NCBI RefSeq assembly: GCF_024204645.1
Contig: NZ_CP100351.1
Location: 930,001-994,000, forward strand
DNA length: 64,000 bases
Origin: Desulfomicrobium sp. ZS1
GTDB taxonomy: Bacteria > Desulfobacterota > Desulfovibrionia > Desulfovibrionales > Desulfomicrobiaceae
Reading direction: 5' to 3'
The stretch's first letter is position 1. Each line of letters begins with the position of its first letter. Of this stretch, positions 22,048-39,151 are shown piece by piece. The position numbers and the translations under genes were made by a program. Below the pieces are notes generated by a model that had not been told where the DNA came from, made no database searches, and saw only the letters and a program-made list of their open reading frames with translations.

Positions 22048-23451
22048 CTATAGGATGAATTTCCAGAAGGGAATAGCTATAAAGGCGATGAAAAATCCGG
22101 TCAGAACCATGCGCACGGCAAGCACTTTGACCATGTCCCTGAAGAGCATGTAGCCGGAACTGAAGAAGTAGAGCAGTACCGCGTACTCATAGGGGAAGAT
22201 GTAGTTGTCCAGGCCGTACTGGAAGGCGTAGTACAGGATTCTGGGATTCATCTCCATCTGCACGCCCAACTCGACCAAGGGGGAGGTGAGGGTGGTCGTC
22301 GCGGCCAGTGGAGTCAGCAGGAAGTTGGCCAGAGCGCCGAGAACGTAGGCGGAGGTTCCCGCCGATGTCGGGCCGAGGTCGTGGAAAAAGGGCAGGGTGA
22401 TGCTGGCGATCCACTGCGTGACCTTGAGATTTCCGCCGGCGCTGCCGATGGCCATGCAACCCATGATGAAGAACAGGGGGGCGAAGTTGATCTTGCTGAA
22501 CTTTGCGCCGTTCATGAGATCAAGGCCGGGCAGGAAGGAGACGAAAGCGATCATGATGAGCACCAGACCCGCGTTGACGCCGTGCAGGGTATCCGTGGCC
22601 AGCAGGGCAAGGGTCAGGAGCATGAGCACCCCTGCGGTCTTCTGCTCCCTGGTGATGGGCCCGAGTTCTTTGAGTTTTTCCTCAAGCACCGGCTTCAAGG
22701 TTTTGCGATCCACCTTCGAAGGCAGCAGAAGCATGACCAGGCCGACGGACATGATCGTGTAGATGGTGCCGGGGACAAAATTGTGGAGAGCGTACTCCAT
22801 CCAGGCCGTCTTGGTGTCCATGACCCTGTCCGCCAGTCCCATGCCCAGGACGAGGTCCGCACCGCCCGTCAGGTAGCAGAGTTTCGTGGATGCCACGGCC
22901 AGGCAGGTTCCCAGGATGACAGCAGTGGCTTCACGGCTCTTGGGCCTGAAATCGAGGGCCTCGCACAGGCTGATGGCGATGGCGCAGAAAATGGCAGCTT
23001 TGCCGGTGATGGCCGGGATCAGGGGGGCGACGATGAAGACCGCCAGGGTCAGGCCCCACAAGGCGCCGATGAAGCTCCCACCCATGGCTCGCACGCATGT
23101 CAGGCCGATCCGTTTTCCGAGGCCGCTGTCCTGGAGAATTTTGCCCAGGGTGAAGCCGCCGATGACGATGATGGGCACCTGGGAAGTCCAGGGGCCATAG
23201 GCTACTTTTTGCGGAACGCCGCAGATGACGATGTAGAGCACAGGGAGCAGTATGCCGACAGCCACTTCATTGATGATGTCCGTTGCCCAAACCACGACGG
23301 CCCATGCCGTGATAGCCAGGAAGAGAGCCATGGGCCGGGTCAGCGTTTCGCCGTCCACGGGCAGCATGAAAAAGACGGCGATGGGAACGGCCAGGCTCAA
23401 AGCCCATTTGAACAGGGTTTCTTTCTCCAACATAGACGGGGTTGCGGGCAT
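22048..23451 (-). CDS. DASS-family (SLC13) anion:sodium symporter
   Basis: The 467-residue integral membrane protein has about 12 hydrophobic segments and belongs to the divalent anion:Na+ symporter group, which takes up dicarboxylates, sulfate or organic sulfonates. Typical features are the early AITAWAVVVWATDIINE segment, the loop VPIIVIGGFTLGKIL, TLTSPLVELG in the second half (second SNT-like motif region), and a C-terminal YEYAVLLYFFSSGY. The start is the ATG behind AAGGAG; the frame open to 23526 has no better start. It is divergent from a Crp/Fnr gene, with a shared 226-base control region. The substrate is not identifiable; context hints at an organic anion. Confidence 0.85.
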   Translation of the reverse strand: MPATPSMLEKETLFKWALSLAVPIAVFFMLPVDGETLTRPMALFLAITAWAVVVWATDIINEVAVGILLPVLYIVICGVPQKVAYGPWTSQVPIIVIGGFTLGKILQDSGLGKRIGLTCVRAMGGSFIGALWGLTLAVFIVAPLIPAITGKAAIFCAIAISLCEALDFRPKSREATAVILGTCLAVASTKLCYLTGGADLVLGMGLADRVMDTKTAWMEYALHNFVPGTIYTIMSVGLVMLLLPSKVDRKTLKPVLEEKLKELGPITREQKTAGVLMLLTLALLATDTLHGVNAGLVLIMIAFVSFLPGLDLMNGAKFSKINFAPLFFIMGCMAIGSAGGNLKVTQWIASITLPFFHDLGPTSAGTSAYVLGALANFLLTPLAATTTLTSPLVELGVQMEMNPRILYYAFQYGLDNYIFPYEYAVLLYFFSSGYMLFRDMVKVLAVRMVLTGFFIAFIAIPFWKFIL

Positions 23452-23677
23452 GGGGTATCTCCTTGAGTGAAATTTGATTGGTGGAGAATACGGAGGTCCC
23501 CATGGTCGTGCTGTAACGATTACCACTTTTTTTGCCGTGAAGCACGTGTATTGTCATTTTTTTCACGAATAATGAGGGCTGGGTACTGCCGCGTCGGGCG
23601 CGCCCGAATTCAATCCGGTCCGGGCATGAACCAAGGAAGACCGGCGCATGGCCTGATGCTTGAAACATGGGGGAGCG
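23452..23677. promoter_or_regulatory. Divergent control region, transporter and Crp/Fnr gene
   Basis: The 226 bases must hold promoters in both directions. TGTAACGATTACCA at 23512-23525 is an imperfect 14-base palindrome whose left half equals that of the operator-like sites found ahead of the outer-membrane and arylsulfotransferase genes. Its right half is shorter, so the link is weak. No sigma-54 element is seen. Confidence 0.35.
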
Positions 23678-24394
23678 ATGTCTGCTGATACGTCGGATAT
23701 GGGGTTCAAGGAGCTGGAATTCTCGCGCATTCCGCCCGAGGCGGAGTGTTGGCGCAGTGTCCTTTCGCAGGGCAGGAGGATGAAATTCCTCAAAGGGGCG
23801 CATATCTCCTCGAAGATGACGGACGGAGCCTTTCTCTTTTTTCTGGACTCGGGAGAGATCTGGTTGACTAGGTCGACCCTGGACGGCCGTGAAAAGATCA
23901 TCTGGCGCATCGGACCCGACTCGCTGTTCGGTGAAACGCCGTTTTTCGACGAACTTCCGGCCCGGAGCGCCATTGTCGCGGCCATGGACTGCACGGTCTA
24001 CGCTTTTTCCCGAAAATGCGTCCTGAATGAGATTTTGCCTCAAAACCCGGAACTCATGGCCGCACTCTTTCGTACTTTGGCCATCAAAGTGCGCGTGCTG
24101 ATCAATCAGGCCGTGTCTCTCAGCCTGGACGATCTGCCGGCGCGCATCTGCAAATATCTGAACCTGCGCCGTGAGACGCAGGTCCTTAAGGACGGTCCCC
24201 TTGTCGTCAGTCCGGTTCTCAATCAGCAGGAACTGGCCAATCTGCTCGGCGTGCATCGCGTGACTCTGAACAAATGCCTGCGCGAACTGGAAAAAGCCGG
24301 TGTTCTTGGACCCTACTCGCGTGACGAGGTGTACATTCTCGACCGCGTCCGTTTTGATAAGCTGGTCAGCCAGAACGAATCGCGCCTGTCTTGA
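23678..24394 (+). CDS. Crp/Fnr-family transcription regulator
   Basis: The 238-residue protein has an N-terminal cyclic-nucleotide-binding-like beta-roll (about 25-145; GEIWLTRSTLDGREKIIWRI, DSLFGETPFF) and a C-terminal winged helix (about 165-235) with LNQQELANLLGVHRVTLNKCL as the helix-turn-helix. It lacks the Cys set of FNR near the N-terminus, so it does not look like an oxygen-sensing iron-sulfur protein. The effector is unknown. The start is the ATG behind GGGGAG. It is divergent from the DASS transporter and upstream of the outer-membrane protein gene. It is the obvious candidate to bind the paired 16-bp sites at 24529 and 25642. Confidence 0.87.
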   Translation: MSADTSDMGFKELEFSRIPPEAECWRSVLSQGRRMKFLKGAHISSKMTDGAFLFFLDSGEIWLTRSTLDGREKIIWRIGPDSLFGETPFFDELPARSAIVAAMDCTVYAFSRKCVLNEILPQNPELMAALFRTLAIKVRVLINQAVSLSLDDLPARICKYLNLRRETQVLKDGPLVVSPVLNQQELANLLGVHRVTLNKCLRELEKAGVLGPYSRDEVYILDRVRFDKLVSQNESRLS

Positions 24395-24512
24395 ATGTTC
24401 ATCCGGTCATGACGCGTCGCGTCATCACTCCCCCATGTTTCATCTCCTTGCGCCTTCACATCTTGCGGAAGCTGGGCTCTGCCTTACAGCTTCCTTTTTC
24501 ATCGATTTCATG

Positions 24513-24544
24513 ACGATTTTTCACCAAATGTAACAAACGCAACA
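24513..24544 (+). promoter_or_regulatory. Conserved upstream block with Crp-type site (copy 1)
   Basis: The 16-bp core TGTAACAAACGCAACA (24529-24544) has TGT and ACA ends ten bases apart, the geometry of Crp/Fnr operators. It is preceded by ACGATTTTT. The whole block recurs with few changes ahead of the arylsulfotransferase gene. The core ends 111 bases before the start codon of the outer-membrane protein. Confidence 0.6.
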
Positions 24545-24655
24545 GAGTTTTCAGGCTCAATTCTCCTAGATCGTTCCTGGTTTCACAATCGGCTCGCGCC
24601 GGATTCGTTGTCGCGAGCGCATTTTCGTCAACCTGAACATCGAAGGGAGAATTAC

Positions 24656-25552
24656 ATGCGTTGGAAAATTCTGTCGAACCTGCTGCTGGTCTGCTGTCTC
24701 ATCCTGGCCACCGTTTCAAGCTCTGCTGCGCAAAACGCCACCGCTCCGGTTCCGGCTGGTCCGGTGGGCGTGAACCATGGCGCGGGCGGACTGGGCTTCC
24801 CCGTAGGCAAGTTCTGCGCTGTGGCGAATTACCGCTACGCCCACAAGGATCAGTGGTATCTGCACACCTCCGACGAGGACGGCCCGGACCGCGAAGTGTT
24901 TAGTCACAACATCCTTTTCAAGACCCGCTACGGCATCGCCGAGGGCTGGGATGTGCGCACGGCCACGCCTTTCCTGCTCAATACCATCGAGGCGGACGGA
25001 CGCAACGATGCCTGGTCCGGCGGCCTGGGAGACACCACCGCCATCCTGCACAATCAGTTTGCGTCGCAGAAGAAGGGCGCGCCCCTGAATCTTGCCTGGG
25101 ATCTGGGCATTGTCGTTCCCACGGGCGAGGTTGGGTCCAACAATATCGGCAGCGGCGCCTGGGGTGGCTTGGTCGGACTGGGCGCAACCTGGATCGGCGG
25201 GGGCCATCGTCTCGAAACGGACATGAGTTATCTCGTCTACACCGAAGGCTACAAGGACGTCACCAAAGGTGATCGCCTGCGCATCAACGCCCATTATGCC
25301 TACGCTCTGAGCACGCGCCTCGATCTGGGCCTTGAGGGCTATTATGAATGGACCCAGGAAGACGAGGCCGGCGGCGACGATCTCGGAAACGACGCCAAGA
25401 CTCTCTATGCCGGACCCAAGTTCAATCTGAAATTTCCCGAATACGGCGTGACCTTCGGAGGCGCAGTTCTTGGCGCGGCCTACAGGGAATACGAAAAAAA
25501 GAGCCTGACCGAGGATTGGCGGGCGGAATTCAAGCTAATCAAATTGTTCTGA
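24656..25552 (+). CDS. Outer-membrane beta-barrel transporter-like protein
   Basis: The 298-residue protein has a signal peptide (WKILSNLLLVCCLILATVSSSAAQ) and then amphipathic strands rich in Gly and aromatic residues, ending in a C-terminal Phe (LIKLF), typical of outer-membrane barrels. The pattern RYGIAEGWDVRTATPFLLNT and GLGDTTAILHNQF matches the MetA-pathway of phenol degradation type family, which is often annotated simply as transporter. It probably gives a hydrophobic or organic solute passage across the outer membrane. AGGGAG precedes the start. It shares its upstream control block with the arylsulfotransferase gene 210 bases downstream. Confidence 0.75.
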   Translation: MRWKILSNLLLVCCLILATVSSSAAQNATAPVPAGPVGVNHGAGGLGFPVGKFCAVANYRYAHKDQWYLHTSDEDGPDREVFSHNILFKTRYGIAEGWDVRTATPFLLNTIEADGRNDAWSGGLGDTTAILHNQFASQKKGAPLNLAWDLGIVVPTGEVGSNNIGSGAWGGLVGLGATWIGGGHRLETDMSYLVYTEGYKDVTKGDRLRINAHYAYALSTRLDLGLEGYYEWTQEDEAGGDDLGNDAKTLYAGPKFNLKFPEYGVTFGGAVLGAAYREYEKKSLTEDWRAEFKLIKLF

Positions 25553-25624
25553 TTGTTTGTAGTCCAAATAATTGATCGACTGTAACTTTATCATTTTTTT
25601 GATTTTTTTTGTTCAAAAATAAAA

Positions 25625-25657
25625 ACGATTTTTTACGAAACTGTAAGAAACGCAACA
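25625..25657 (+). promoter_or_regulatory. Conserved upstream block with Crp-type site (copy 2)
   Basis: The core TGTAAGAAACGCAACA (25642-25657) differs from copy 1 at one of 16 bases, and the leading ACGATTTTTT is also shared. The core ends 105 bases before the arylsulfotransferase start, nearly the same distance as in copy 1. The two genes are therefore likely controlled by the same protein. Confidence 0.6.
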
Positions 25658-25762
25658 GCGCCACTGTGTAATTCGTGGAAGAACGTTTCTTGCGTAAGCT
25701 GGATCAAGGATGCTGCCGGGGCTCGCCGGCATGATTTCCATACAACGAAAAAGGAGTACATC

Positions 25763-27211
25763 ATGGGTCACCCAACCATTTATCCCACCGGCGTGACAGT
25801 ATACGATCCCGAGAAATGCTGGAACGGACTCACCATTTTTCAGGCCCAGGAAGTGGGCGCCGTGCTTATGGACATGAACGGGCGCGAACACAATGTCTGG
25901 AAGGGCGTGCTCGGCATGCCCAACAAGATTTTTCCCGGCGGCTACCTCATGACCAGCCGTGGCCGCCGCGACGGCAAGTTCAGCGTCCAGGACGGCATCG
26001 ACGTTGTCCAGGTCGACTGGGACGGCAATGTCGTCTGGAGTTTCGACCAGAACGAGTTCATTGAGGATCCCGGCCATGAAGGTCGCTGGATGGCTCGCTA
26101 TCATCACGATTTCCAGCGCCAGGGCAATCCCGTGGGCTATTACGCTCCGGGCATGGAGCCCAAGACCGATTCCGGCAACACGCTGGTCCTGGCCCATCGC
26201 AACGCCCGCAATTCCGCCATCTCCGACAAGCTCCTTCTCGACGACGTCATCCTGGAGGTGAACTGGGAAGGCGAGATCGTTTGGGAATGGTACTGCCACG
26301 AGCATTTCGAGGAGTTCGGCTTCCGCGAAGGACCCAAGAACACTCTGGCCCGCAACCCCAACTATCGTCCGACCAAGCCCGAGGGCATGGGCGACTGGAT
26401 GCACATCAATTCCATGTCTGCTCTGGGGCCCAACAAATGGTACGACGCGGGCGACGAACGCTTTCATCCGGACAATATCATCGTGGACGGGCGTGAGGCC
26501 AACATAACCTTCATCATCGACAAGAAGAGCGGCAAGGTCGTCTGGAAGCTGGGCCCCGATTATGATTCCACGCCCGAGCTCAAGGCCATCGGCTGGATCA
26601 TCGGCCAGCACCACTGCCACATGATTCCGGCCGGGTTGCCTGGCGCAGGCAATATCCTCATCTTCGACAACGGAGGATGGGGCGGCTACGACGTGCCCAA
26701 CCCCGGCGCACCCACCGGCGTGAAGGCCGCCCTGCGCGACTATTCCCGGGTGCTCGAAATCGACCCGGTGGCCATGAAGATCGTCTGGCAGTACACTCCA
26801 AGCGAAGCCGGCTTCCTCTTCCCCATGGACAGCAACCGTTTCTACAGCCCCTTCATCAGCGGCATGCAGCGACTGCCCAACGGCAATACGCTGATCACCG
26901 AAGGTTCCGACGGCCGCGTGTTCGAGGTCACCCCCGACCACAAGATCGTGTGGGAATTCATCTCTCCCTACAAAGGCACGTTCATTCCCATGAACATGAC
27001 GTACCGCGCCTATCGCGTACCCTACGAGTGGGTGCCGCAGGTCCAGAAGCCCGTCGAGACGCCTGTCGTGCCTCTTGATGTGAATACCTTCCGCGTGCCC
27101 GGCGCCGCCGCTTTCGGCGATCGCGCCAAGGAAGTGAGCGTGGACGGCTGCGTACCTTATGGCGGCAGCAACGCCCTGTGCGTGGCCTCCGTCGAAGACG
27201 ACGAGAAATAA
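25763..27211 (+). CDS. Arylsulfotransferase-like beta-propeller protein
   Basis: The 482-residue protein belongs to the bacterial arylsulfate sulfotransferase (ASST) family, a six-bladed propeller seen as repeated VVWSF, IVWEW, VVWKL, IVWQY and IVWEF blade strands. Candidate catalytic His are present: His214 in DWMHINS, and His283-His284 in GQHHCHMIPAGL, followed by GNILIFDNG. The classical enzyme moves sulfate between phenols in the periplasm. Here there is no signal peptide, so the protein should be cytoplasmic. The C-terminus holds Cys residues (DGCVPYGG, NALCVA). AAGGAG lies before the ATG. A terminator-like hairpin follows directly. Aryl sulfate as substrate is an inference from the family. 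Confidence 0.82.
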   Translation: MGHPTIYPTGVTVYDPEKCWNGLTIFQAQEVGAVLMDMNGREHNVWKGVLGMPNKIFPGGYLMTSRGRRDGKFSVQDGIDVVQVDWDGNVVWSFDQNEFIEDPGHEGRWMARYHHDFQRQGNPVGYYAPGMEPKTDSGNTLVLAHRNARNSAISDKLLLDDVILEVNWEGEIVWEWYCHEHFEEFGFREGPKNTLARNPNYRPTKPEGMGDWMHINSMSALGPNKWYDAGDERFHPDNIIVDGREANITFIIDKKSGKVVWKLGPDYDSTPELKAIGWIIGQHHCHMIPAGLPGAGNILIFDNGGWGGYDVPNPGAPTGVKAALRDYSRVLEIDPVAMKIVWQYTPSEAGFLFPMDSNRFYSPFISGMQRLPNGNTLITEGSDGRVFEVTPDHKIVWEFISPYKGTFIPMNMTYRAYRVPYEWVPQVQKPVETPVVPLDVNTFRVPGAAAFGDRAKEVSVDGCVPYGGSNALCVASVEDDEK

Positions 27212-27217
27212 ACCGAT

Positions 27218-27251
27218 CGCGGGAGAGGCCGGGTGCCTTTCCCGCGTTTTT
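27218..27251 (+). terminator. Intrinsic terminator between ASST and glutaredoxin genes
   Basis: CGCGGGA and TCCCGCG close a stem that contains an inner AGGC/GCCT helix, and TTTTT follows. It lies only 15 bases before the next start codon, so it probably reduces rather than abolishes expression of the genes beyond. Confidence 0.7.
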
Positions 27252-27265
27252 CCGGAGAAAAAATC

Positions 27266-28087
27266 ATGAGCATCACCCTTTACACCGCCCCGGACTGCCA
27301 GCGCTGTAAAATCGTCAAGGAATTCCTGGCCGAACGCGGGCAGGAGTATACGGCCTACGACTTCAAAGACGACAAGGACATCTTCAACGCCTATTACCGG
27401 GCCAACCGCTCCTCCATCTACCGCAACCCCGAAGGCGTGGAGTTTCCGATCTTCGACGACGGCACGGTCATCAAGCAGGGTACGGGCGAGATCCTGGCCT
27501 ATCTGTTGTCGGGCCGCATCCTGGAAGCCTGCGTGACGCGCAGCGAACTGCTGCACGGCTGGATTTCGGGCCTCAACGTTTCGGCCTGTCCCGAAGGCCA
27601 GGAAGATAATTTCGTCACGCTGGTCCGTCTGCTGGCCAAGGGCGGACTGACCGTGGAGCTGCATTCGGACGGACGCCGCGCCGACCTGCTCAAGACCGTG
27701 TTGGACGAAGGACATGTCAGCCGCATGGTCCTCGACGTGGTCGGTCCGGCCGGCCTGTACCCGCCCATCGCGGGCAGCGGGGTTGCCCAGGATGACCTGA
27801 AGCAGAGCATCGCCGCCAGTCGCGCCCATGCCGATCACCTGATCCGCATCCTCGTCTCGGCCTATAAGGGCGATGACGGGGCCATGACGCACGTCACGCC
27901 CATGGAAGCCGCCGAAGCCGCGAAGATGGTTTTCGAAGCCTGCGGGGACCGTATGCTGCCTGTGTTCATCGAGGCGCAGCAGGCCGAGGGCCTGGAAGCC
28001 CTGGAGGGTCAGGCCCTGCTGCCGTATCGCTCCAAGGTGCGCGCGTCTCTGGTCAAGGCCGAGATCCGCAAACCCGAAGCACACTGA
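27266..28087 (+). CDS. Glutaredoxin domain fused to a radical-SAM-activase-like domain lacking its cluster motif
   Basis: Residues 1 to about 85 are a glutaredoxin (ITLYTAPDCQRCKIVKEFL with active-site CQRC, and EFPIFDDGTVIKQG). Residues about 105-273 read like the second half of an anaerobic-RNR/PFL activating-enzyme barrel: GLNVSACPEGQED aligns with the GVTxSGGEPLLQ strand-loop, TVELHSDG with the TxxTNG strand and MVLDVVGP with the D-x-K strand. The CxxxCxxC motif is absent and GGE is changed to CPE, so radical chemistry is not expected. I infer a redox or binding role in handling a thiol-bound intermediate. The lipoyl-carrier gene starts 25 bases after the stop, with its own AAGGAGG. The radical-SAM likeness is by eye only. 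Confidence 0.7.
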   Translation: MSITLYTAPDCQRCKIVKEFLAERGQEYTAYDFKDDKDIFNAYYRANRSSIYRNPEGVEFPIFDDGTVIKQGTGEILAYLLSGRILEACVTRSELLHGWISGLNVSACPEGQEDNFVTLVRLLAKGGLTVELHSDGRRADLLKTVLDEGHVSRMVLDVVGPAGLYPPIAGSGVAQDDLKQSIAASRAHADHLIRILVSAYKGDDGAMTHVTPMEAAEAAKMVFEACGDRMLPVFIEAQQAEGLEALEGQALLPYRSKVRASLVKAEIRKPEAH

Positions 28088-28112
28088 TTTGCCGATACAA
28101 GGAGGACATATC

Positions 28113-28496
28113 ATGGCACTGAATTTTCCCGATGACCGCCGCTATCACGCCGAACATCTTTGGGCCAAGGACGCCGGGGACGGCACGTTTATCGTAGGCA
28201 TCACCGATTTCGCCCAGGAACAGTTGGGTGAGGTTATTTTCATCGATCTTCCGGAAGTCGGCTCGCATTTCGCCCAGGGAGTGTCCTGCGCGGAGATCGA
28301 ATCAGCCAAGGTCGTATCCCCGGCCATTATCCCCCTGTCCGGGACCGTCGCCGAGGTCAATGCGGCCCTGATCGACACTCCGGAGCTGGTCAATTCGGAT
28401 CCTTACGGTCAGGGCTGGCTGGTGCGCATTACCGCCACCGATCCTTCCGAGGCGACCATCACCGCGGCCCAGTACGAGCAGATCGTCTCGGCCTGA
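28113..28496 (+). CDS. GcvH-like lipoyl carrier protein
   Basis: The 127-residue protein has the fold and length of glycine-cleavage H protein: RYHAEHLWAKDAGDGTFIVGITDFAQEQLGEVIFIDLPEVG, then the lipoylation hairpin with Lys66 in EIESAKVVS followed by PLSGTVAEVN. The usual context is ESVKA, so ESAKV is slightly divergent. No gcvT or gcvP is near, so a role in glycine cleavage is doubtful. Orphan H-like proteins serve as lipoate-binding carriers in sulfur metabolism (LbpA of the sHdr pathway), and this gene lies close to hdrCBA. The start has AAGGAGG. Confidence 0.85.
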   Translation: MALNFPDDRRYHAEHLWAKDAGDGTFIVGITDFAQEQLGEVIFIDLPEVGSHFAQGVSCAEIESAKVVSPAIIPLSGTVAEVNAALIDTPELVNSDPYGQGWLVRITATDPSEATITAAQYEQIVSA

Positions 28497-28517
28497 CCGT
28501 TCTTCATTTCCCTCCCT

Positions 28518-28553
28518 GTCTTTGCGCCGACCGTCCGGTCGGCGCAAAGACAG
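28518..28553 (+). terminator. 16-bp perfect hairpin between lipoyl-carrier and lpd genes
   Basis: TGTCTTTGCGCCGACC and its exact complement enclose a four-base loop GTCC. Only GTTTAG follows, so termination may be partial. The stem is among the strongest in the window and would at least stabilise the upstream transcript. Confidence 0.6.
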
Positions 28554-28612
28554 TTTAGCCAAGCCGGGATGGCCCGGTCATCCAGGTTCAATCCACTCAC
28601 GAGGAGGTTGCC

Positions 28613-30025
28613 ATGTCGCAACGCATCACCATTATCGGCGGCGGCCCCGGCGGCTATACCGCCGCATTTTCCGCGGCCAAGGCCGGAGCGCAGGTCACAC
28701 TTGTCGAAGCTGCCCACATGGGCGGGACGTGCCTGAACTGGGGCTGCATTCCGACCAAGACGCTCAAGGCCTCGGCCGATGCCCTGGAGACCGCTCATCG
28801 TCTGAGCGAGTTCGGCATCAGCGGCGCAGGGGAGGCCAAGCCCGACATGCCGGCCATAGTGGCCCGCAAGAACAAGGTTTCGGAGATCCTGCGCGGCGGT
28901 CTGGAGAAGACCTGCGCCAAGCTCAAGGTCACGCTGTTGCGTGGCCGGGGCGAAGTGGTCAATGCCGGACTGGTGCGCGTGCACGCCGCCAACGGATCGG
29001 TACAGGATGTGGTCGGCGACAAAGTCATCATCGCCACGGGCTCCAGCACCTTGAATCTTCCGACCCTGCCCGTGGATCACGCGCACATCATCACCAGCGA
29101 CGATGCGCTGGAACTCCAGACCGTTCCGGGGCGGATGTTGGTGGTCGGCGGCGGGGTCATCGGCTGCGAGCTGGCCTTCATCTTCCAGGCTCTGGGCTCC
29201 AAGGTCACGGTGGTCGAGGGGTTGGACCGGGTGCTGCCTGTGCCGTCCATCGACGCCGACCTGAGCAAGCTGATCCAGCGCGAGATGAAAAAGCGGGGCA
29301 TCGGTTGCGAACTGGCCCGCACGGCAACCAGGGCGGAAGTGACCGAGAGCGGCGTGCAGATCACCTTGGGGCCGTCGCCTTTCGTCAAGGATCTGCCCCT
29401 GTCCGCGCAGAAGGAAAGTGTGCTGGAGGCCGACGTGGTGCTGGTGGCCGTGGGCCGCGTGCCCAACACGGCCGGGCTGGGACTGGCCGAGGCCGGAGTG
29501 GAGACGGACCAGCGCGGCTGGATCAAGGCCGACGCCACGCTTCAGACGAACGTGCCGGGCATTTACGCCGTGGGCGACGTGCTGGGACCGGCGCGGATCA
29601 TGCTAGCCCACGTGGCGTCCATGGAGGGGCTCGTGGCGGTGAGAAACTGTCTGGGCGCGTCCGAGAACATGGATTATGCCACCGTGCCCGCCGCAGTCTT
29701 TACTTCGCCCGAGGTAGCCACCGTGGGGCTGACCGAATCCCAGGCGCGGGAACAGGGCTATAACGTGGCCTGTCCGCAGAGCAACTTTCGCGAACTGGGC
29801 AAGGCCCAGGCCATGGGCGAACTGGCCGGACTGTTCAAGCTGGTGGTGGATGCGGACAGCGGAAAGCTTCTTGGCGCGCACCTGGCCGGTGCCCATGTTT
29901 CAGATATCATCGCCGAACCGACTTTGGCCATGCAGCTCGGAGCCAAGGCCGAGGACCTGGCTCGCACCATCCACGCCCATCCCACCCTTGCTGAAGGCAT
30001 CTTCGAAACGGCACATCTGCTTTGA
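28613..30025 (+). CDS. lpd: Dihydrolipoamide dehydrogenase
   Basis: The flavoprotein reoxidises dihydrolipoyl groups with NAD+. The 470-residue sequence has the N-terminal FAD motif GGGPGGYTAAFSAAKAG, the redox disulfide in GGTCLNWGCIPTK, a second nucleotide-binding motif GGGVIGCELAFIF, and the C-terminal HAHPTLAE that supplies the catalytic His-Glu pair. GAGGAGG precedes the ATG. It follows the lipoyl-carrier gene, which is the likely substrate. NADH formed here could feed the Flx complex encoded downstream. Confidence 0.95.
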   Translation: MSQRITIIGGGPGGYTAAFSAAKAGAQVTLVEAAHMGGTCLNWGCIPTKTLKASADALETAHRLSEFGISGAGEAKPDMPAIVARKNKVSEILRGGLEKTCAKLKVTLLRGRGEVVNAGLVRVHAANGSVQDVVGDKVIIATGSSTLNLPTLPVDHAHIITSDDALELQTVPGRMLVVGGGVIGCELAFIFQALGSKVTVVEGLDRVLPVPSIDADLSKLIQREMKKRGIGCELARTATRAEVTESGVQITLGPSPFVKDLPLSAQKESVLEADVVLVAVGRVPNTAGLGLAEAGVETDQRGWIKADATLQTNVPGIYAVGDVLGPARIMLAHVASMEGLVAVRNCLGASENMDYATVPAAVFTSPEVATVGLTESQAREQGYNVACPQSNFRELGKAQAMGELAGLFKLVVDADSGKLLGAHLAGAHVSDIIAEPTLAMQLGAKAEDLARTIHAHPTLAEGIFETAHLL

Positions 30026-30031
30026 AAAAAA

Positions 30032-30064
30032 CGTCGCGCCGGATTTCTTTGCATCGGCGCGACG
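30032..30064 (+). terminator. Hairpin after lpd
   Basis: CGTCGCGCCG and CGGCGCGACG form a perfect 10-bp stem around 13 bases. An A-run precedes it, but no T-run follows on the plus strand, so it is a weak terminator on this strand. Confidence 0.5.
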
Positions 30065-30185
30065 CATCTCTCCTTCCGGACACGGCGGCCAAGTCATATG
30101 GGCTAGACAATGCCGGGCTCTGGGGACTATGGCACTAAATCTGCTTAAAAGAAACTCCATGTCCCGGAAACAAACGCTCTTAGTG

Positions 30186-30198
30186 GATACATTGTATC
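30186..30198. promoter_or_regulatory. GATACA-T-TGTATC palindrome upstream of hdrC
   Basis: A perfect 13-base palindrome with a single central base lies 121 bases before hdrC in the 293-base gap after lpd. It is placed as an operator of the hdr-flx operon would be. It does not match the Rex consensus that controls some energy genes in sulfate reducers. The regulator is unknown. Confidence 0.4.
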
Positions 30199-30318
30199 AA
30201 TTTGGATCACCCGTCCGTGCGAACGGTGTGTCAAAAAGGTTCATTGTGCGCACGGCGTTTTTTCGGGACGGGATTCATGTCAACCGGACGGTTCGCCGTT
30301 CTTTACCGCAAGTTGGGT

Positions 30319-30885
30319 ATGTCCATGCAAATCTTTGATCTTACCACTGCCGACCTTGAGTTTGTCGCTGAGGTCGAAGCCCGCAGCCACCAGAAAATCA
30401 GCAACTGCTACCAGTGCGGCAATTGTACGGCCGGATGCCCGTATACATTTGCCTACGATTATTCGGTCAGTCAGATCATGCGACTGATTCAGATCGGACA
30501 AAAGGAAGCAGTGCTGAAAAGCAGGTCCCTGTGGCTGTGCGGCTCCTGTCAATCCTGTACCACGCGCTGTCCGAACAAGATCGATGTGGCGCTGATCATG
30601 GATGTCTGTCGGCACATGGCCCGGGAGGCCGGGTACGCCACGGAGCGTTCCGTGAAGATTTTCGTCGACTCGTTTCTGGCCTCGGTCGAGCGCCATGGTC
30701 GCGCCTATGAGCTGGGTCTCATGACTGCGTACATGACGCGCTCCGGCCGCGTATTCACCGATGTCGATTTGGCTCCGCAGGCTCTCATGCGCGGCAAGCT
30801 GCCGTTCAAACCGCACGAGATCCAAGGGCGCGAACAGGTGGCCCGCATTTTCGAGCGGTTCCGTAAAGGAGGCGACAATGTTTAA
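30319..30885 (+). CDS. hdrC: Heterodisulfide reductase subunit C
   Basis: HdrC carries two 4Fe-4S clusters that pass electrons between HdrA and HdrB. Both motifs are present: CYQCGNCTAGCP and CGSCQSCTTRCP, spaced as in HdrC. The 188-residue length fits the soluble type. Two ATGs (30319 and 30325) start the family-like MSMQIFDLTTADLEF; neither has a strong ribosome site, and the frame is open further upstream. The stop overlaps the hdrB start by eight bases. It opens the hdrCBA-flxDCBA operon. Confidence 0.92.
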   Translation: MSMQIFDLTTADLEFVAEVEARSHQKISNCYQCGNCTAGCPYTFAYDYSVSQIMRLIQIGQKEAVLKSRSLWLCGSCQSCTTRCPNKIDVALIMDVCRHMAREAGYATERSVKIFVDSFLASVERHGRAYELGLMTAYMTRSGRVFTDVDLAPQALMRGKLPFKPHEIQGREQVARIFERFRKGGDNV

Positions 30886-31762
30886 AATCGCGTATTATCC
30901 CGGCTGTTCCGGTCAGGGCACGTCCCTGGAATACGACATGTCCACCCGCGCAGTCTGCAAGGCCCTGGACGTGGAACTGGTGGAAATTCCGGACTGGAGC
31001 TGCTGTGGTTCCTCCCCCGCGCACACCGTGAATCATGTTTTGTCCGCAGCCCTGTCCGCCCGCAACCTGGCCCAGGTCGAGGTCATGGGCATGGACAAGG
31101 TCACGACGCCCTGTCCCAGTTGCCTGACCAACCTGCGCACCGCGGCCCACAAGATGGAGTCTCCGGAGTTTCGGGGCAAGGTCAACGCGCTCCTCGACGT
31201 GCCCTGTAATGGGAACGTCGACGCCCAGTCCGTCTTGCAGGTGTTGGCCGAAAACGTGGATCCCGAGCTGATCAAGTCCAAGGTGGTAAGGCCCCTGACC
31301 GGAATCAAGATCGCCTGTTATTATGGCTGCATCATGAACCGTCCTCCGGAGCTGATGCGCTTCGATCACCACGAAAATCCCATGGCCATGGACAACCTGA
31401 TGATCGCGCTCGGGGCGGAGGTCGTGCCGTTCCCGCTCAAAGTGGAGTGCTGCGGCGCTTCGTACGGCATACCGCGGGGCGATATCGTGATGCGGCTGTC
31501 GGGCAAGCTTCTGGACGCCGGACGCGATGTCGGCGCGGACGCTTTCGTGACCGCCTGTCCGCTGTGCCAGATGAACCTGGATCTTAGGCAGGGGCAGATC
31601 AACCGCGCTCTGCACGAGAAATTCAGGATTCCGGTTTTCTATTATACCCAACTCCTTGGCTATGCTCTGGGATTGGACCGCGCCGTGCTTGGCTTTGAAA
31701 AGCTCTGTGTCGATCCGAGACTCGCCCTGGGCAAGATCAAACAACCGGCGCAGGCCAGGTAG
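30878..31762 (+). CDS. hdrB: Heterodisulfide reductase subunit B
   Basis: This catalytic subunit reduces a disulfide at two noncubane 4Fe-4S clusters. The 294-residue protein has two CCG domains: YYPGCSGQGT..SCCGSS..CPSC in the first half and CYYGCIMNRP..ECCGAS..CPLC in the second. In sulfate reducers the natural disulfide is thought to be DsrC or another small thiol rather than CoM-S-S-CoB. The start has AAGGAGG six bases before the ATG, within the end of hdrC. The C-terminal LGKIKQPAQAR is a basic tail. Confidence 0.94.
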   Translation: MFKIAYYPGCSGQGTSLEYDMSTRAVCKALDVELVEIPDWSCCGSSPAHTVNHVLSAALSARNLAQVEVMGMDKVTTPCPSCLTNLRTAAHKMESPEFRGKVNALLDVPCNGNVDAQSVLQVLAENVDPELIKSKVVRPLTGIKIACYYGCIMNRPPELMRFDHHENPMAMDNLMIALGAEVVPFPLKVECCGASYGIPRGDIVMRLSGKLLDAGRDVGADAFVTACPLCQMNLDLRQGQINRALHEKFRIPVFYYTQLLGYALGLDRAVLGFEKLCVDPRLALGKIKQPAQAR

Positions 31763-31772
31763 GGAGGACGCA

Positions 31773-33755
31773 ATGCGAATTGGTGTTTTTATCTGCCATT
31801 GCGGCAGCAATATTGCCGGAACCGTGGACTGTCCGTCCGTTGCGGCGACGGCCCTGACCTATCCGGATGTGGTTTTCTCCACCGACACGATGTACGCCTG
31901 TTCCGAGCCCGGGCAGGACGCCATCATCCAGGCCATCAAGGAAAAGAATCTCGACGGCGTGGTCGTGGCCTCCTGTACTCCGCGCATGCACGAGCCTACT
32001 TTCCGCCGGACCGTGGAGCGTGCGGGCCTGAACCGTTACATGTTCGAAATGGCCAACATCCGCGAGCATGTCTCCTGGATCGGCAAATCAAAGGATTTGA
32101 ACACGGGCAAGGCCGCCGAGCTGGTGCGCATGGCCGTGGAAAAACTGCGTCGCGACAAACCGCTGATCCCCAAACGTTTCGAGACGGTCAAGCGCGTGCT
32201 GGTCATCGGCGGCGGCGTGGCCGGCATCCAGGCGGCCCTGGACTGCGCTGACGGCGGGCAGGAAGTCATCATGGTCGAGCGCGAGCAGACCATCGGCGGC
32301 AAGATGGCCAAACTGGACAAGACCTTTCCCACGGTGGACTGCTCGTCCTGCGTGCTGGGCCCCAAGATGGTCGACATTGCCCAGCATCCGAACATCACCC
32401 TGTATGCCTGTTCCGAGATCGAAGCTGTCGGCGGGTACGTAGGCAACTTCCAGATCACCATCCGCAAGAAGGCGACCTACGTGAATTGGAAGGACTGCAC
32501 GGGCTGCGGCCTGTGCGTGGAGAAATGCCCCAGCCGCAAGTTGCCCGACAAGTTCAACGAAGGGCTCTGCAACGCCCCGTCCATCAACATCCCGTTCCCG
32601 CAGGCCATCCCCAAGAAAGCGGCCATCAACGCCGAGTCCTGCCTGATGTTGACCAAGGGCAAGTGCGGATTGTGCGCCAAGGTCTGCCCGGTCAAGTGCA
32701 TTGATTTCGAGCAAAAGGACGAGCTCATCAACGTGGATGTCGGCGCCATTGTCGTGGCCACGGGTTACGACCTTTTCGATTGGCACAAGTATCCGCAGTA
32801 CGGCGAAGGCCGCTACCCGGATGTGGTTACTTCCATGCAGTACGAGCGCATGCTTTCGGCTTCCGGCCCCACGGGCGGACACGTCAAGCGGCCCTCCGAC
32901 GGCAAGGAGCCCAAGAACGTGGTCTTCATCCAGTGCGTGGGTTCGCGCGACAAGTCCGTGGACCGTCCGTACTGTTCGGGCTTCTGCTGCATGTACACCG
33001 CCAAGCAGACCATCCTGACCAAGGACCATATCCCCGATTCCCAGTCCTACGTTTTCTACATGGATATCCGTTCGCCGGGTAAGCTCTACGACGAGTTCGT
33101 GCGCCGGGCCATGGAAGAATACGGGGCGCAGTATGTGCGCGGTCGCGTGTCCATGATCTATCCCAAGGGCGACAAGCTCATCGTGCGCGGCGCCGACACC
33201 CTGGCCGGCACGCAGGTGGAGGTTCCCGCCGACCTGGTCGTTCTGGCCGTGGGCGCGGAATCGGCCAAGGGCGCGGTGCAACTGGGCGAAAAACTGCGCG
33301 TGGCTCCGGATCAGTACGGATTCTTCGTCGAGAGCCATCCCAAACTCAAGCCCGTCGAGACCAACACCGCCGGCGTGTTTCTGGCCGGTGCCTGTCAGGG
33401 TCCCAAGGACATTCCGGCCTCCGTCAGTCAGGGCAGCGCCGCCGCGTCCAAGGTTCTGGGCCTTCTTTCCAAGAAGGAGCTGGAATCCGATCCGGCCGTG
33501 TCCAGAGTCAATCCGGCGCGCTGCGTGGGTTGCGGCAAGTGCATCCAGACCTGTCCGTTCGGAGCCATCAAGGAAGTGCAGGATCGCTTCGGCAATCCCA
33601 AGGCCGAAGTCATCGACACGGTCTGTCAGGGTTGCGGCATCTGCACAGTGACCTGCCCCCAGGGGGCCATTCAGCTCGAGCATTTCACAGATAACCAGAT
33701 CCTCGCGGAGGTGATCGCCTTATGCCCGCCCAAGATGTTCGCGAATTACGAATAG
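31773..33755 (+). CDS. hdrA: Heterodisulfide reductase subunit A
   Basis: HdrA is the flavin-containing, electron-bifurcating subunit. The 660-residue protein has an N-terminal Cys cluster segment (FICHCGSNIAGTVD), a thioredoxin-reductase-like FAD domain (VLVIGGGVAGIQAALDCA), the HdrA-specific VDCSSCVLGPKM, one 4Fe-4S pair in the middle (CTGCGLCVEKCP, CGLCAKVCP) and a second pair at the C-terminus (CVGCGKCIQTCP, CQGCGICTVTCP). The start is ATG behind GGGAGG. The last 34 bases overlap flxD, whose ribosome site GGAGGTGA lies inside hdrA. With FlxABCD it should bifurcate NADH electrons to ferredoxin and to a disulfide. Confidence 0.95.
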   Translation: MRIGVFICHCGSNIAGTVDCPSVAATALTYPDVVFSTDTMYACSEPGQDAIIQAIKEKNLDGVVVASCTPRMHEPTFRRTVERAGLNRYMFEMANIREHVSWIGKSKDLNTGKAAELVRMAVEKLRRDKPLIPKRFETVKRVLVIGGGVAGIQAALDCADGGQEVIMVEREQTIGGKMAKLDKTFPTVDCSSCVLGPKMVDIAQHPNITLYACSEIEAVGGYVGNFQITIRKKATYVNWKDCTGCGLCVEKCPSRKLPDKFNEGLCNAPSINIPFPQAIPKKAAINAESCLMLTKGKCGLCAKVCPVKCIDFEQKDELINVDVGAIVVATGYDLFDWHKYPQYGEGRYPDVVTSMQYERMLSASGPTGGHVKRPSDGKEPKNVVFIQCVGSRDKSVDRPYCSGFCCMYTAKQTILTKDHIPDSQSYVFYMDIRSPGKLYDEFVRRAMEEYGAQYVRGRVSMIYPKGDKLIVRGADTLAGTQVEVPADLVVLAVGAESAKGAVQLGEKLRVAPDQYGFFVESHPKLKPVETNTAGVFLAGACQGPKDIPASVSQGSAAASKVLGLLSKKELESDPAVSRVNPARCVGCGKCIQTCPFGAIKEVQDRFGNPKAEVIDTVCQGCGICTVTCPQGAIQLEHFTDNQILAEVIALCPPKMFANYE

Positions 33756-34213
33756 TCGGCTTTCTTTGTAACTGGTGCTCCTATGGCGGCGCGGATACCG
33801 CAGGTGTGTCCCGCTTCACTCAGCCCACGGATCTGCGCGTCATCCGCGTACCCTGTTCGGGCCGCATCGACCCGCTCTTCATCGTTCGTTCGCTCATGAA
33901 CGGGGCGGACGGAGTGCTCGTGTCCGGCTGCCACCCGCGTGATTGCCACTACGCTGAAGGCAACTTCTATGCCCGGCGCAGGCTTGAGATGCTCAAGCGC
34001 TTCCTGCCCATCACCGGCATCGACGCGCGGCGTTTCGAATACACCTGGGTTTCGGCTTCGGAAGGGCAGCGCTGGCAGCATGTGGTCACGGAGTTCACGC
34101 GCCGTATCCATGAGCTCGGGCCCGCGCCGACCTTCAACCCGGCTTCCGAGGCGGACTGGAACACGCTGGCCGTACAGGCCGGCCAGGGGCAGACGTGCCC
34201 GTGTCACGGATAG
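33722..34213 (+). CDS. flxD: MvhD-like electron-transfer subunit FlxD
   Basis: The 163-residue protein is of the MvhD family, a [2Fe-2S] adaptor that hands electrons to HdrA. The motifs are FLCNWCSYGGADTAG near the start, VRVPCSGRID-type segment (RVPCSGRIDP) and VSGCHPRDCHY. The start inside hdrA is supported by a perfect GGAGGTGA site, and the 34-base overlap fits tight coupling of the two subunits. A C-terminal CPCHG adds two more Cys. It is the bridge between FlxABC and HdrABC. Confidence 0.93.
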   Translation: MPAQDVRELRIVGFLCNWCSYGGADTAGVSRFTQPTDLRVIRVPCSGRIDPLFIVRSLMNGADGVLVSGCHPRDCHYAEGNFYARRRLEMLKRFLPITGIDARRFEYTWVSASEGQRWQHVVTEFTRRIHELGPAPTFNPASEADWNTLAVQAGQGQTCPCHG

Positions 34214-34235
34214 ATTTGCAATAACAGGAGGACAT

Positions 34236-35192
34236 ATGTCCCAATTGGATGATCTCAAAAATGCCATCAAGAGCCACCTGGGCGAGCTTGAGTGCGTCAT
34301 TGGCTGGGAGCAGGGCTATGACCCGCTTCATGCCACGCCGCTCTTCATCCGCACCGAGGCGGATCTGGACCGGCTTACCATAGGCCCTCTGGCCGTGCAC
34401 AACCTGGCCACCTACCTGACCGGGTTCAAGGGCAAGAAGATCGGAGTGGTGGTCAAGGGCTGCGATAGCAAGAGCGTGATCCAGCTTTTGAATGAAAATC
34501 TGATAAAACGCGACGAGGTCGTCATTTTCGGCCTGTGTTGCGACGGCGTGGTCAGCCAACGCAAGATCCGCGCGGCGCTGCCTGCCGATCCGGGTTTCGT
34601 GGAGTCGGTGGAAATCGGCGCAAGCGACCTCAAGATCACCGTGGCCGGCCAGGCCGCGACCTTGAAGCTTTCTGATGTGCTGGCCGATAAATGCCTGGTC
34701 TGCGCCACGCCCGACGCCATCATTTCCGATGTGCTGATCGGCACGGCGCATACTCCGACCCCTCCCGCGAGCCTGGCCTGCCAGGACGAGTTCGAGGCCA
34801 AGAGCGACGCCGAGAAGCTTGCTTTCTGGCAGGAGAACATGAGCCGCTGCATCCGCTGCTACGCCTGTCGCAACGCCTGTCCCATGTGCGTCTGCCGCGA
34901 CTACTGCATAGCGACCAGCCGCGACCCCTTGTGGCTTAGCCAGGACAATTCTCCGGCCGAGAACATGATGTTCCAGATGGTGCATGTCTCGCATCTGGCC
35001 GGGCGCTGCACGGAGTGCGGTGAATGCGAGCGGGCCTGTCCCGTGGACATTCCGCTGATGCTGCTGCGGCGTTACATGAACAAGCAGGTCAAGGACGTGT
35101 TTGAGCTGCAGGCAGGCACGGCTTTGGAACAGACCCCGCCTCTTTTGACCTTCAAGGTCGAGGAAGAGCGCATCAACGAGCGAGGCTGGTAA
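34236..35192 (+). CDS. flxC: Iron-sulfur subunit FlxC
   Basis: The 318-residue protein has an N-terminal half resembling the CoF420 hydrogenase/dehydrogenase beta-subunit type domain (KIGVVVKGCDSKSVIQLL, FGLCCDGV) and a C-terminal half with two 4Fe-4S motifs (CIRCYACRNACP and CTECGECERACP), in addition to Cys in CVCRDYC. In the Flx complex of sulfate reducers such subunits wire NADH oxidation to HdrA. An AGGAGG site precedes the ATG. Its stop overlaps the flxB start (TAATG). Confidence 0.88.
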   Translation: MSQLDDLKNAIKSHLGELECVIGWEQGYDPLHATPLFIRTEADLDRLTIGPLAVHNLATYLTGFKGKKIGVVVKGCDSKSVIQLLNENLIKRDEVVIFGLCCDGVVSQRKIRAALPADPGFVESVEIGASDLKITVAGQAATLKLSDVLADKCLVCATPDAIISDVLIGTAHTPTPPASLACQDEFEAKSDAEKLAFWQENMSRCIRCYACRNACPMCVCRDYCIATSRDPLWLSQDNSPAENMMFQMVHVSHLAGRCTECGECERACPVDIPLMLLRRYMNKQVKDVFELQAGTALEQTPPLLTFKVEEERINERGW

Positions 35193-36220
35193 TGGAACGA
35201 TTCATAACAAAAGAGAACCTCATCCGTTTGGCCGAGGAACTGTCCGCCACCTGCCGCGTGCTTGCGCCCGTGGCCAGCTGCGGTACCGTGACCTTCCGTC
35301 GTTTTCTGCCGGGGATGGTCCTTGACCTGCACTCGCGCATGGCGGCGGTGTCACCCAAGGCCGCAACCTTCCCGCAGACGGAAACCCTGCTGACTGTCAA
35401 GCGCGAGATCCCGGAGAAGAAGCCGGAAATCACCGAGACCCTGCCCGAGGGCAAGAGCGTGGTCATCGGCTGCCGCCCTTGCGGGGCGCGCGGCAAGCTT
35501 ATCTTCAATCCGGTCTATGAGACGGACAAAACCAAGGACCCTTACTATATCCAGCGTCGGGACAACACGGTCTTCATCTCCCTGGCCTGCGACCGGCCCG
35601 AGACGACCTGCTTCTGTCACAGCGTGGGCAGCGGTCCGGCGGACCCGGATGGCTCCGACGTGCTCCTGACCCTGGTGGGCGAGGGCTATGTGGCGCGTTC
35701 GGTTACTCCCGCTGGGGAAGATGTCCTGAAGTCCGCCCTGTTCACGGACGCCGGCGACAAGGGCAAGGAGGCCGACGCCAAGAACGCCAAGGCGCGCGAG
35801 ATGATGGGCGAGGCCCACGATTACGTCTCCGCCCCGGCCAAGCTGCTGGCCCGTTTCGACGACATGGACTTCTGGGCCGCCCAGTCGGCCAAGTGCATCT
35901 CCTGCGGAGCCTGCACCTACATGTGTCCGACCTGCTACTGCTTCAACATCACCGACGACGATCTGGGACTTGAGAGCCGCCGCATCCGCACTTGGGACAA
36001 CTGCATGTCCCACACCTTCACCCTGGAAGGCAGCGGCCACAACCCGCGTCCGACCAAGGCCCATCGTCTGAAAAACCGTGTCGGGCACAAGTTCAGCTAC
36101 TATCCGGACCTGCATGGGGGCGTCATGGCCTGTTGCGGGTGCGGCCGGTGCATCAAGCAGTGCCCCGCCGGAATCGATATCCGGCAGATCGTGAAAGCAG
36201 CACAGGAGTACTCCGAATGA
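35192..36220 (+). CDS. flxB: Iron-sulfur subunit FlxB
   Basis: The 342-residue protein is like the AsrA/hydrogenase 4Fe-4S subunit family. The N-terminal domain carries GCRPCGARGKL and SLACDRPETTCFCHSVG; the C-terminal domain has two 4Fe-4S motifs, CISCGACTYMCP (followed by TCYCFNI) and CCGCGRCIKQCP. It is expected to sit between the NADH-oxidising FlxA and FlxC/FlxD. The start codon shares a base with the flxC stop and the end overlaps flxA (ATGA), so translation of the operon is coupled throughout. Confidence 0.88.
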   Translation: MERFITKENLIRLAEELSATCRVLAPVASCGTVTFRRFLPGMVLDLHSRMAAVSPKAATFPQTETLLTVKREIPEKKPEITETLPEGKSVVIGCRPCGARGKLIFNPVYETDKTKDPYYIQRRDNTVFISLACDRPETTCFCHSVGSGPADPDGSDVLLTLVGEGYVARSVTPAGEDVLKSALFTDAGDKGKEADAKNAKAREMMGEAHDYVSAPAKLLARFDDMDFWAAQSAKCISCGACTYMCPTCYCFNITDDDLGLESRRIRTWDNCMSHTFTLEGSGHNPRPTKAHRLKNRVGHKFSYYPDLHGGVMACCGCGRCIKQCPAGIDIRQIVKAAQEYSE

Positions 36221-37822: not shown

Positions 37823-38115
37823 GAAGGACGGAACGAGGGCAGAGGAGGGCTTGGTGGTTCAAGCCGAAACGCCTTTTTTGCGTCGTCGCGATCAGGGGGA
37901 AATCCTTGTTTGGGACGTGATGGCCGGATACCGGCTTTTCCGCACAAAGGCATTTTTTTGTTCGAAAGTGAACAGATCTTTTCTATAGCGAACCTGAATA
38001 TGAAGCGGACGCCCTGTCGCCGGCTCCAGTCGATATGGCCGCTTTTGGGTTGGCTTTGCCCTTGAATTGGCAGGCGCATGCGCCATGAAAACCAACTTGT
38101 AATAAGGAGATGATC

Positions 38116-39132: not shown

Positions 39133-39151
39133 CCACATACAAGGCATTATC

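Follow-up and report, generated by a model that had tools for sequence, protein, structure and literature searches.

What does a glutaredoxin do when it is joined to what looks like the remainder of a radical-SAM activase, and in which pathway would such a protein work when its gene lies between those for an arylsulfotransferase and a lipoyl carrier? The question is raised by a gene in a 64,000-nt stretch of the genome of Desulfomicrobium sp. ZS1 (NZ_CP100351.1, positions 930,001-994,000; GCF_024204645.1), which we call the window and to which all coordinates refer (Table 1). A sequence-only reading had described a glutaredoxin fused to an activase-like domain, and matches to PF00462 and to an NrdG2 profile bear this out for the open reading frame 27266-28087; the strands it quoted (GLNVSACPEG, TVELHSDG and MVLDVVGP) are all present in the 273-aa translation. 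Sequence profiles and structural models show a two-domain architecture, with a predicted NrdH-type dithiol glutaredoxin in front and, at the back, a predicted NrdG2 activase barrel that starts at strand 2. On the opposite strand, an open frame of 833 aa (25613-28114, minus) spans the arylsulfotransferase and fusion genes; it is probably an antisense artefact that reflects the high GC content.

Table 1. Features of the fusion gene and of its surroundings, in window coordinates
Feature	Position	Strand	Basis or remark
DASS-family anion transporter	22048..23526	-	PF00939, 96.7 bits
Crp/Fnr-type regulator	23675..24394	+	PF00027 and PF13545
Outer-membrane protein, Phenol_MetA_deg family	24680..25552	+	PF13557, 58.9 bits
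Protein of the arylsulfotransferase family; by eye, without an apparent signal peptide	25763..27211	+	PF05935, 83.6 bits (cutoff 24.2)
Glutaredoxin / cluster-less NrdG2-derived barrel fusion protein	27266..28087	+	ORF with ATG start, 273 aa plus stop
Complete NrdH-like glutaredoxin domain, residues 1-85	27266..27520	+	PF00462, AF2, Foldseek
CxRC dithiol motif, residues 11-14	27296..27307	+	Alignment of family members
NrdG2-derived partial barrel, residues 86-273 (strand 2 onward, without strand 1 and cluster loop)	27521..28084	+	hhalign, VIA
Former GGE site, now SACPEG, residues 106-111	27581..27598	+	Joint alignment with NrdG2
Former DVK-P site, now DVVGP, residues 157-161	27734..27748	+	Joint alignment with NrdG2
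GcvH-like lipoyl carrier	28113..28496	+	TIGR00527, 128.8 bits (cutoff 115.85)
Dihydrolipoyl dehydrogenase (Lpd)	28613..30025	+	TIGR01350, 477 bits (cutoff 408.8)
HdrC, HdrB, HdrA, FlpD and FrhB-like protein	30322..35192	+	Pfam/NCBIfam scans

The front domain narrowly exceeds the curated glutaredoxin score in the Pfam scan (23.8 bits against a cutoff of 22.9 for PF00462). When modelled alone, the N-terminal domain is predicted by AlphaFold2 and Foldseek to adopt a complete glutaredoxin fold of the order b-a-b-a-b-b-a (residues 1-99; pLDDT 85.1 for the best of five models, 49-59 for the last three); in the full-length model it appears at low confidence, with residues 1-9 below a pLDDT of 50. Foldseek relates the model to NrdH, BC3987 and Spx/ArsC-like chains, and among PDB sequences 3zij is matched by the family profile at E 1.6e-8. 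Residues C11, R13 and C14 are invariant in the 24 aligned members, the two cysteines forming a CxxC where helix 1 begins, and the same holds for P61, presumably the cis-Pro of the glutaredoxin fold, and for R48 and R53, R45 being nearly invariant. CxRC is found in 45 of the 46 distinct members and the sole exception is cut by a contig end. The resemblance to Spx and ArsC-like chains and the conserved arginines at positions 45, 48 and 53 would also suit a redox sensor or regulatory adaptor that controls the arylsulfotransferase instead of relaying thiols in turnover. The company of GcvH and Lpd is, however, better suited to turnover, and a Crp-type regulator is already present at the locus, so that we regard a sensor as unlikely.

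The origin of the second domain can be traced to NrdG2. The NCBIfam model TIGR02495 (NrdG2) matches residues 116-201 (E 3.8e-5), with 23.1 bits against a curated cutoff of 131.15, and no other activase model was matched at E up to 1 in the same scan; Pfam gave no match for residues 91-273 alone, radical SAM being absent at E up to 1. Profile-profile alignment by hhalign of 24 full-length family members with 25 NrdG2 sequences paired residues 86-262 (profile columns 86-268) with positions 60-232 of the 254 of NrdG2 at a probability of 99.7% and a score of 181, while 20 column-shuffled NrdG2 controls stayed at or below 1.4% with scores of 9.5-21.1, on which grounds chance resemblance was rejected. 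Judged by these profiles, residues 86-273 are homologous to the NrdG2 partial barrel. The NrdG/PflA-type activase pattern proposed earlier therefore holds for NrdG2, and by sequence no further activase type is matched. The family profile also matches NrdG2-type genes of other genomes in the barrel part (E 3e-16 to 1e-10). A search of the own genome with the protein returned the gene itself and one other site (position 3758460; residues 98-182, 29% identity), a canonical NrdG2 with CxxxCxxC and SGGEPT. PDB sequence searches yielded nothing significant for the barrel part, for which fold comparison alone gave matches. Positions 1-59 of NrdG2, including the 4Fe-4S loop, are absent from the fusion, as judged from 46 proteins, each read from where the match begins, and from hhalign with full-length members. 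A glutaredoxin has thus indeed taken the place of the cluster-binding part as the sequence-only reading had it, but what is missing amounts to about a quarter of NrdG2 and not to half.

Structure prediction is in line with this assignment. The AlphaFold2 model of the full protein (18 sequences) has a pLDDT of 83.5 overall and of more than 90 across most of residues 100-267, and the predicted elements (E99-104, H113-125, E129-134, H139-147, E151-158, H162-169/H175-187, E191-197, H212-226, E233-237, H248-258) alternate in an order consistent with the part of a radical-SAM barrel that begins at strand 2. The structure search proposed as a check, run on the whole protein, returned a radical-SAM partial barrel as the top match in VIA-align: the pyruvate-formate-lyase-activase domain 3can (Z 10.6, 156 of 161 residues, rmsd 4.2, model residues 97..269), followed by RlmN, NifB, PflA, lipoyl synthase and QueE at Z 7.9-8.9. 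Only the first few matches are clearly separated from the rest, since barrels of aldolase and HMG-CoA lyase reach Z values of up to 7.8. Foldseek gave a mixed and less clean picture, with LeuA first, a designed protein third, the radical-SAM enzymes DesII and BlsE next and other TIM barrels mixed in. With an unrelated TIM barrel at the head of the Foldseek results and aldolase barrels at such Z values, one might argue that the likeness goes back to a widespread alpha/beta pattern and not to a shared ancestor. This we hold to be extremely improbable, because the sequence profiles pick NrdG2 specifically, far above the shuffled controls, and because remote members of the family retain remnants of the activase motifs (SGGx, DTNG and EVKGP).

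These motifs also bear on the question whether the fusion could still act as a radical-SAM enzyme. CxxxCxxC is found neither in the protein nor in any of the 46 distinct family members, which agrees with the earlier statement that the cluster motif is absent; the members' start codons were assigned from match ends. The joint alignment with NrdG2 took family residues from 85 on, and the gap at the cluster columns is there by construction. In this alignment, the glutamate of GGE is present in 0/24 members and in 25/25 NrdG2 sequences, the latter figure being conserved by construction along with the CxxxCxxC columns, as the script that assembled the NrdG2 set required CxxxCxxC and [ST]GGE (all 25 loci opened passed). 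The change of GGE to CPE that had been noted is thus real for the window protein, and SxCP stands at the former GGE site in 36 of the 44 longer members. The lysine of DVK survives in a single member (L097, a remote one) and the asparagine of TNG in two of the 24, both residues being present in 25/25 NrdG2 sequences; the glycine of TNG is retained throughout (24/24). In the FRxT stretch, the threonine (25/25 in NrdG2) is lost in 23 of 24 members and the arginine is kept in 20. Remote members carry SGGD or SGGS at the GGE site, L098 has DTNG and L097 EVKGP, remnants such as would be left if a true activase had decayed. We take the GGE, DVK, TNG and FRxT-type residues to be the SAM-holding sites of known structures. 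With the cluster strand and loop missing and nearly all of these residues gone, it is, as far as sequence and model allow, highly improbable that the fusion is a radical-SAM enzyme of a known kind, and an active enzyme of this kind was rejected. The idea of a pseudo-radical-SAM protein is supported by the NrdG2 homology, the barrel fold and the absent cluster motif alike.

The family occurs in Desulfovibrionales and, elsewhere in the phylum Desulfobacterota, in a few of the genomes searched. Among 101 near genomes, 65 were matched, 24 of which, counting the own genome, contain all or part of the fusion gene and the others NrdG2 only, and a contig scan gave 17 loci, mostly from Desulfomicrobium, Desulfovibrionales, Desulfovibrio, Bilophila and Desulfohalobiaceae. 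A class-wide profile search matched 84 of 348 genomes at E 1e-10, 61 with the fusion (again including the own genome) and 23 with NrdG2 only. In a phylum-wide search, 77 of 395 spread genomes were matched by the profile. Full-length members were present in G000, seven genomes of the same order and G611, G630, G619 and G399; the remaining 65 matched in the barrel part only (best E 3e-16). Plasmid records contained no match. A second piece or a fragment of the fusion gene was seen in G013 (C22:1-372), G176 (C44:8047-8529) and G253 (on two contigs), some of these at contig ends. Both domains are under purifying selection. For five computable pairs dN/dS is 0.04-0.15 over the whole protein, which led us to reject a decaying pseudogene, and 0.02-0.07 for the glutaredoxin and 0.05-0.23 for the barrel; in the sixth pair, with L035, synonymous change is saturated.

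An arrangement next to canonical nrdG2 genes hints at how the fusion may have arisen. A pattern search found a redoxin-like CxxC ORF of 82-92 aa directly upstream of nrdG2 in 13 of 25 loci, namely in 13 of the 18 phylum-wide loci (L079-L096) and in none of the seven near-set loci. There is thus a hint that the fusion derives from such a redoxin-nrdG2 pair, minus the first ~59 residues of NrdG2. In a small set, the best match of the family's glutaredoxin profile to these upstream redoxins was a weak one at E 0.0075, and by this comparison the glutaredoxin of the fusion is not clearly closer to them. It is conceivable that the fusion still serves anaerobic ribonucleotide reduction, with the redoxin supplying electrons and the NrdG2 remnant docking to NrdD: both halves resemble accessory proteins of class III ribonucleotide reductase, redoxin-like ORFs precede nrdG2 as just described, and some class III enzymes use thioredoxin, according to the available part of a published study (PMC4390871). 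The own genome, however, keeps its canonical NrdG2 elsewhere, and the fusion has an arylsulfotransferase, GcvH and Lpd as neighbours and tracks the arylsulfotransferase across genomes, all of which makes a role in ribonucleotide reduction improbable.

The neighbours were sought by tblastn with the window proteins in 20 loci from 20 genomes (L097-L116), hand-chosen for spread and several of them short or cut. Of the 20, 18 have an arylsulfotransferase near the fusion (partial or in pieces in four of these), 16 have GcvH and 14 have Lpd there, and the Crp regulator is found close by in eight and the DASS transporter in five; the Phenol_MetA_deg protein is rarely a neighbour, with three matches in 37 loci. 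In L104 and L107 the arylsulfotransferase is not near the fusion, and the genome of L107 has a copy about 115 kb away. In L032, L033 and L035, conservation of the arylsulfotransferase (94% identity) is much higher than that of the fusion (88, 79 and 70%). The catalytic histidine of EcAST is His436. Two unlike Lpd lineages stand beside the fusion within L099-L116, one with 62-75% identity (6/20 loci) and the other with 33-37% (8/20), which argues that lipoyl redox chemistry is needed. In L101, a gene for LipA, so named from its sequence since Pfam gives radical SAM only, is situated between those for the fusion and Lpd. Among five loci read gene by gene, transporters of other types were seen, TRAP in L098 (Pfam) and L099 (by eye) and MFS in L109. 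In the window itself, a substrate-binding protein, an ATPase and two permeases at 38110-41512 bear a likeness, by eye, to a phosphonate-type (PhnDCE) ABC transporter.

The carrier scores as a true GcvH and Lpd is present, so GcvH and Lpd could belong to a side branch of glycine cleavage or of the reductive glycine pathway, the arylsulfotransferase then being a bystander. There is little likelihood of this, given the near-complete co-occurrence of fusion and arylsulfotransferase, the absence of GcvP and GcvT among the 12 window genes scanned in 22048-35192 and a second GcvH match elsewhere in the own genome, where the window carrier is one of two. Downstream of the lipoyl genes, the region 30322-37047 encodes HdrC-HdrB-HdrA-FlpD, then the FrhB-like protein and then NAD/FAD-type proteins (the last by eye), an arrangement that we take to resemble an electron-bifurcating cluster of the HdrABC-FlxABCD type. 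Hdr gave no match at E 1e-5 in 37 related loci (20 and 17, from overlapping genomes and several with short flanks). The Hdr set is a neighbour in the window and not a conserved part of the gene set, and an Hdr-dependent system was rejected on this basis.

The association with the arylsulfotransferase extends to whole genomes. In the class-wide set of 348 genomes, the fusion was counted in 61, the arylsulfotransferase in 63 and both together in 58 (Fisher 3e-56, relatedness ignored), counted after dropping the 23 NrdG2-only genomes and 12 with an arylsulfotransferase of at most 52% identity. In other words, 58 of 61 fusion genomes contain the arylsulfotransferase as compared with 5 of the 287 other genomes. 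In these searches the fusion alone was matched in G164, G167 and G023, the last of which has part of an arylsulfotransferase gene. Taken together, the conserved dithiol and the lipoyl partners make a role of the fusion in thiol-disulfide exchange likely, in keeping with the reuse for thiol chemistry that the sequence-only reading had proposed. Our preferred reading, which we consider reasonably probable, is that of a radical-SAM scaffold without its cluster, bearing a thiol relay that partners the arylsulfotransferase and lipoyl-GcvH/Lpd and possibly frees sulfite from organosulfur compounds. The degenerate barrel would provide the glutaredoxin with a scaffold for docking or for binding a substrate, and the fusion would relay thiol-disulfide exchange between the cytoplasmic arylsulfotransferase-family enzyme and lipoylated GcvH, which Lpd would keep charged with NAD(H). 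The gene set as a whole may process an imported sulfur-containing organic anion. In the most speculative step, a thiol would receive a sulfuryl group from the arylsulfotransferase, reduction by the dithiols would release it as sulfite, and DsrAB would respire the sulfite.

Such a sulfite-releasing pathway, which we put forward as a hypothesis, would be consistent with the presence of the arylsulfotransferase, of anion transporters and of dithiols as well as with hosts that lack Sat. From the 65 genomes with the fusion, 37 were hand-chosen for spread and tested for Sat and DsrA, absence being weak evidence in incomplete genomes: Sat was found in 20 and DsrA in 33, including 13 of the 17 Sat-less ones. 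DsrA was not found in G258, G259, G260 and G340, all Sat-less and two of them rated 96-100% complete, so sulfite respiration is not a universal outcome. Across the class, Sat is present in 37 of the 61 member genomes and was not found in 24 of the 61 as compared with 44 of the 287 others (odds ratio 3.6, p 6e-5, relatedness ignored). Fifteen of the 24 belong to one genus, which largely accounts for the excess. AprA scored above the cutoff in five of 27 genomes tested, three with Sat and two of the 24 without, leaving 22 member genomes, some of them incomplete, in which neither Sat nor AprA was found. Genomes G247-G265 (genus g51) contain up to 32 sub-cutoff AprA-like flavoprotein matches each, and several have two or three strong arylsulfotransferase-family matches. 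The members without DsrA and those with Sat indicate that sulfite release is not the sole possible use of the gene set. A more far-reaching version would make the operon an unrecorded route of organosulfate respiration, in which a cytoplasmic arylsulfotransferase passes the sulfuryl group of an imported sulfate ester to a thiol of the fusion or of dihydrolipoyl-GcvH, the vicinal thiol frees sulfite for DsrAB, Lpd re-reduces the disulfide and the dead barrel is an adaptor aligning the sulfotransferase with the thiols. We consider this rather unlikely; if true, sulfite would reach DsrAB without ATP-driven activation of sulfate, and organisms lacking Sat and Apr could breathe sulfate esters.

The fusion would represent a clear pseudo-radical-SAM family in which the cluster part has been replaced by a redox domain, selected in dozens of species and with remnants of the old motifs still legible in remote members. 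It is kept by sulfate- and sulfite-reducing bacteria alongside a lipoic-acid system and an enzyme that transfers sulfate. Should the idea of sulfite release prove right, gut sulfite reducers would gain an extra energy source. The physiological roles of aryl sulfotransferases are described as poorly understood in the available part of a review (PMC13426309), and the fusion, which regularly occurs with GcvH, Lpd and a cytoplasmic arylsulfotransferase, offers a concrete setting for such a role. Full-text literature searches, judged on titles and abstract openings of the top results, returned no description of a glutaredoxin/NrdG2-barrel fusion, and the terms 'sulfotransferase' and 'glutaredoxin' had no match in the main text of PMC10507020 as available.

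Each component has known counterparts from which the fusion and its gene set differ in specific ways. The front domain has the fold and the CxxC position in common with NrdH-redoxin and BC3987-type glutaredoxins (4hs1, 1h75, 3zij), and differs from them by its CxRC, extra conserved arginines, a stretch between helix 2 and the cis-Pro that is longer by eye, and the attached barrel remnant. NrdG2 (TIGR02495) is kept from strand 2 onward in residues 86-262, but a glutaredoxin stands where positions 1-59 with the CxxxCxxC loop were. The closest VIA match to the barrel, 3can, has 9% identity to it and is a chain of 161 residues that is not fused to a glutaredoxin. Like the PAPS-independent aryl sulfotransferases covered in the available part of PMC13426309, the neighbouring enzyme belongs to PF05935, yet unlike them it has no apparent signal peptide. 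The combination of a GcvH-like lipoyl carrier, Lpd and Hdr genes in the window is reminiscent of the sHdr-LbpA system of sulfur oxidation, in which hdrC1B1A-hyp-hdrC2B2 genes are linked to a lipoyl carrier gene, as far as described in the available part of PMC6067878. That linkage is not encountered in the window, where a HdrC-HdrB-HdrA-FlpD set that is not a conserved neighbour lies downstream, the carrier scores above the GcvH cutoff, and the lipoyl genes are accompanied instead by the glutaredoxin fusion and the arylsulfotransferase.
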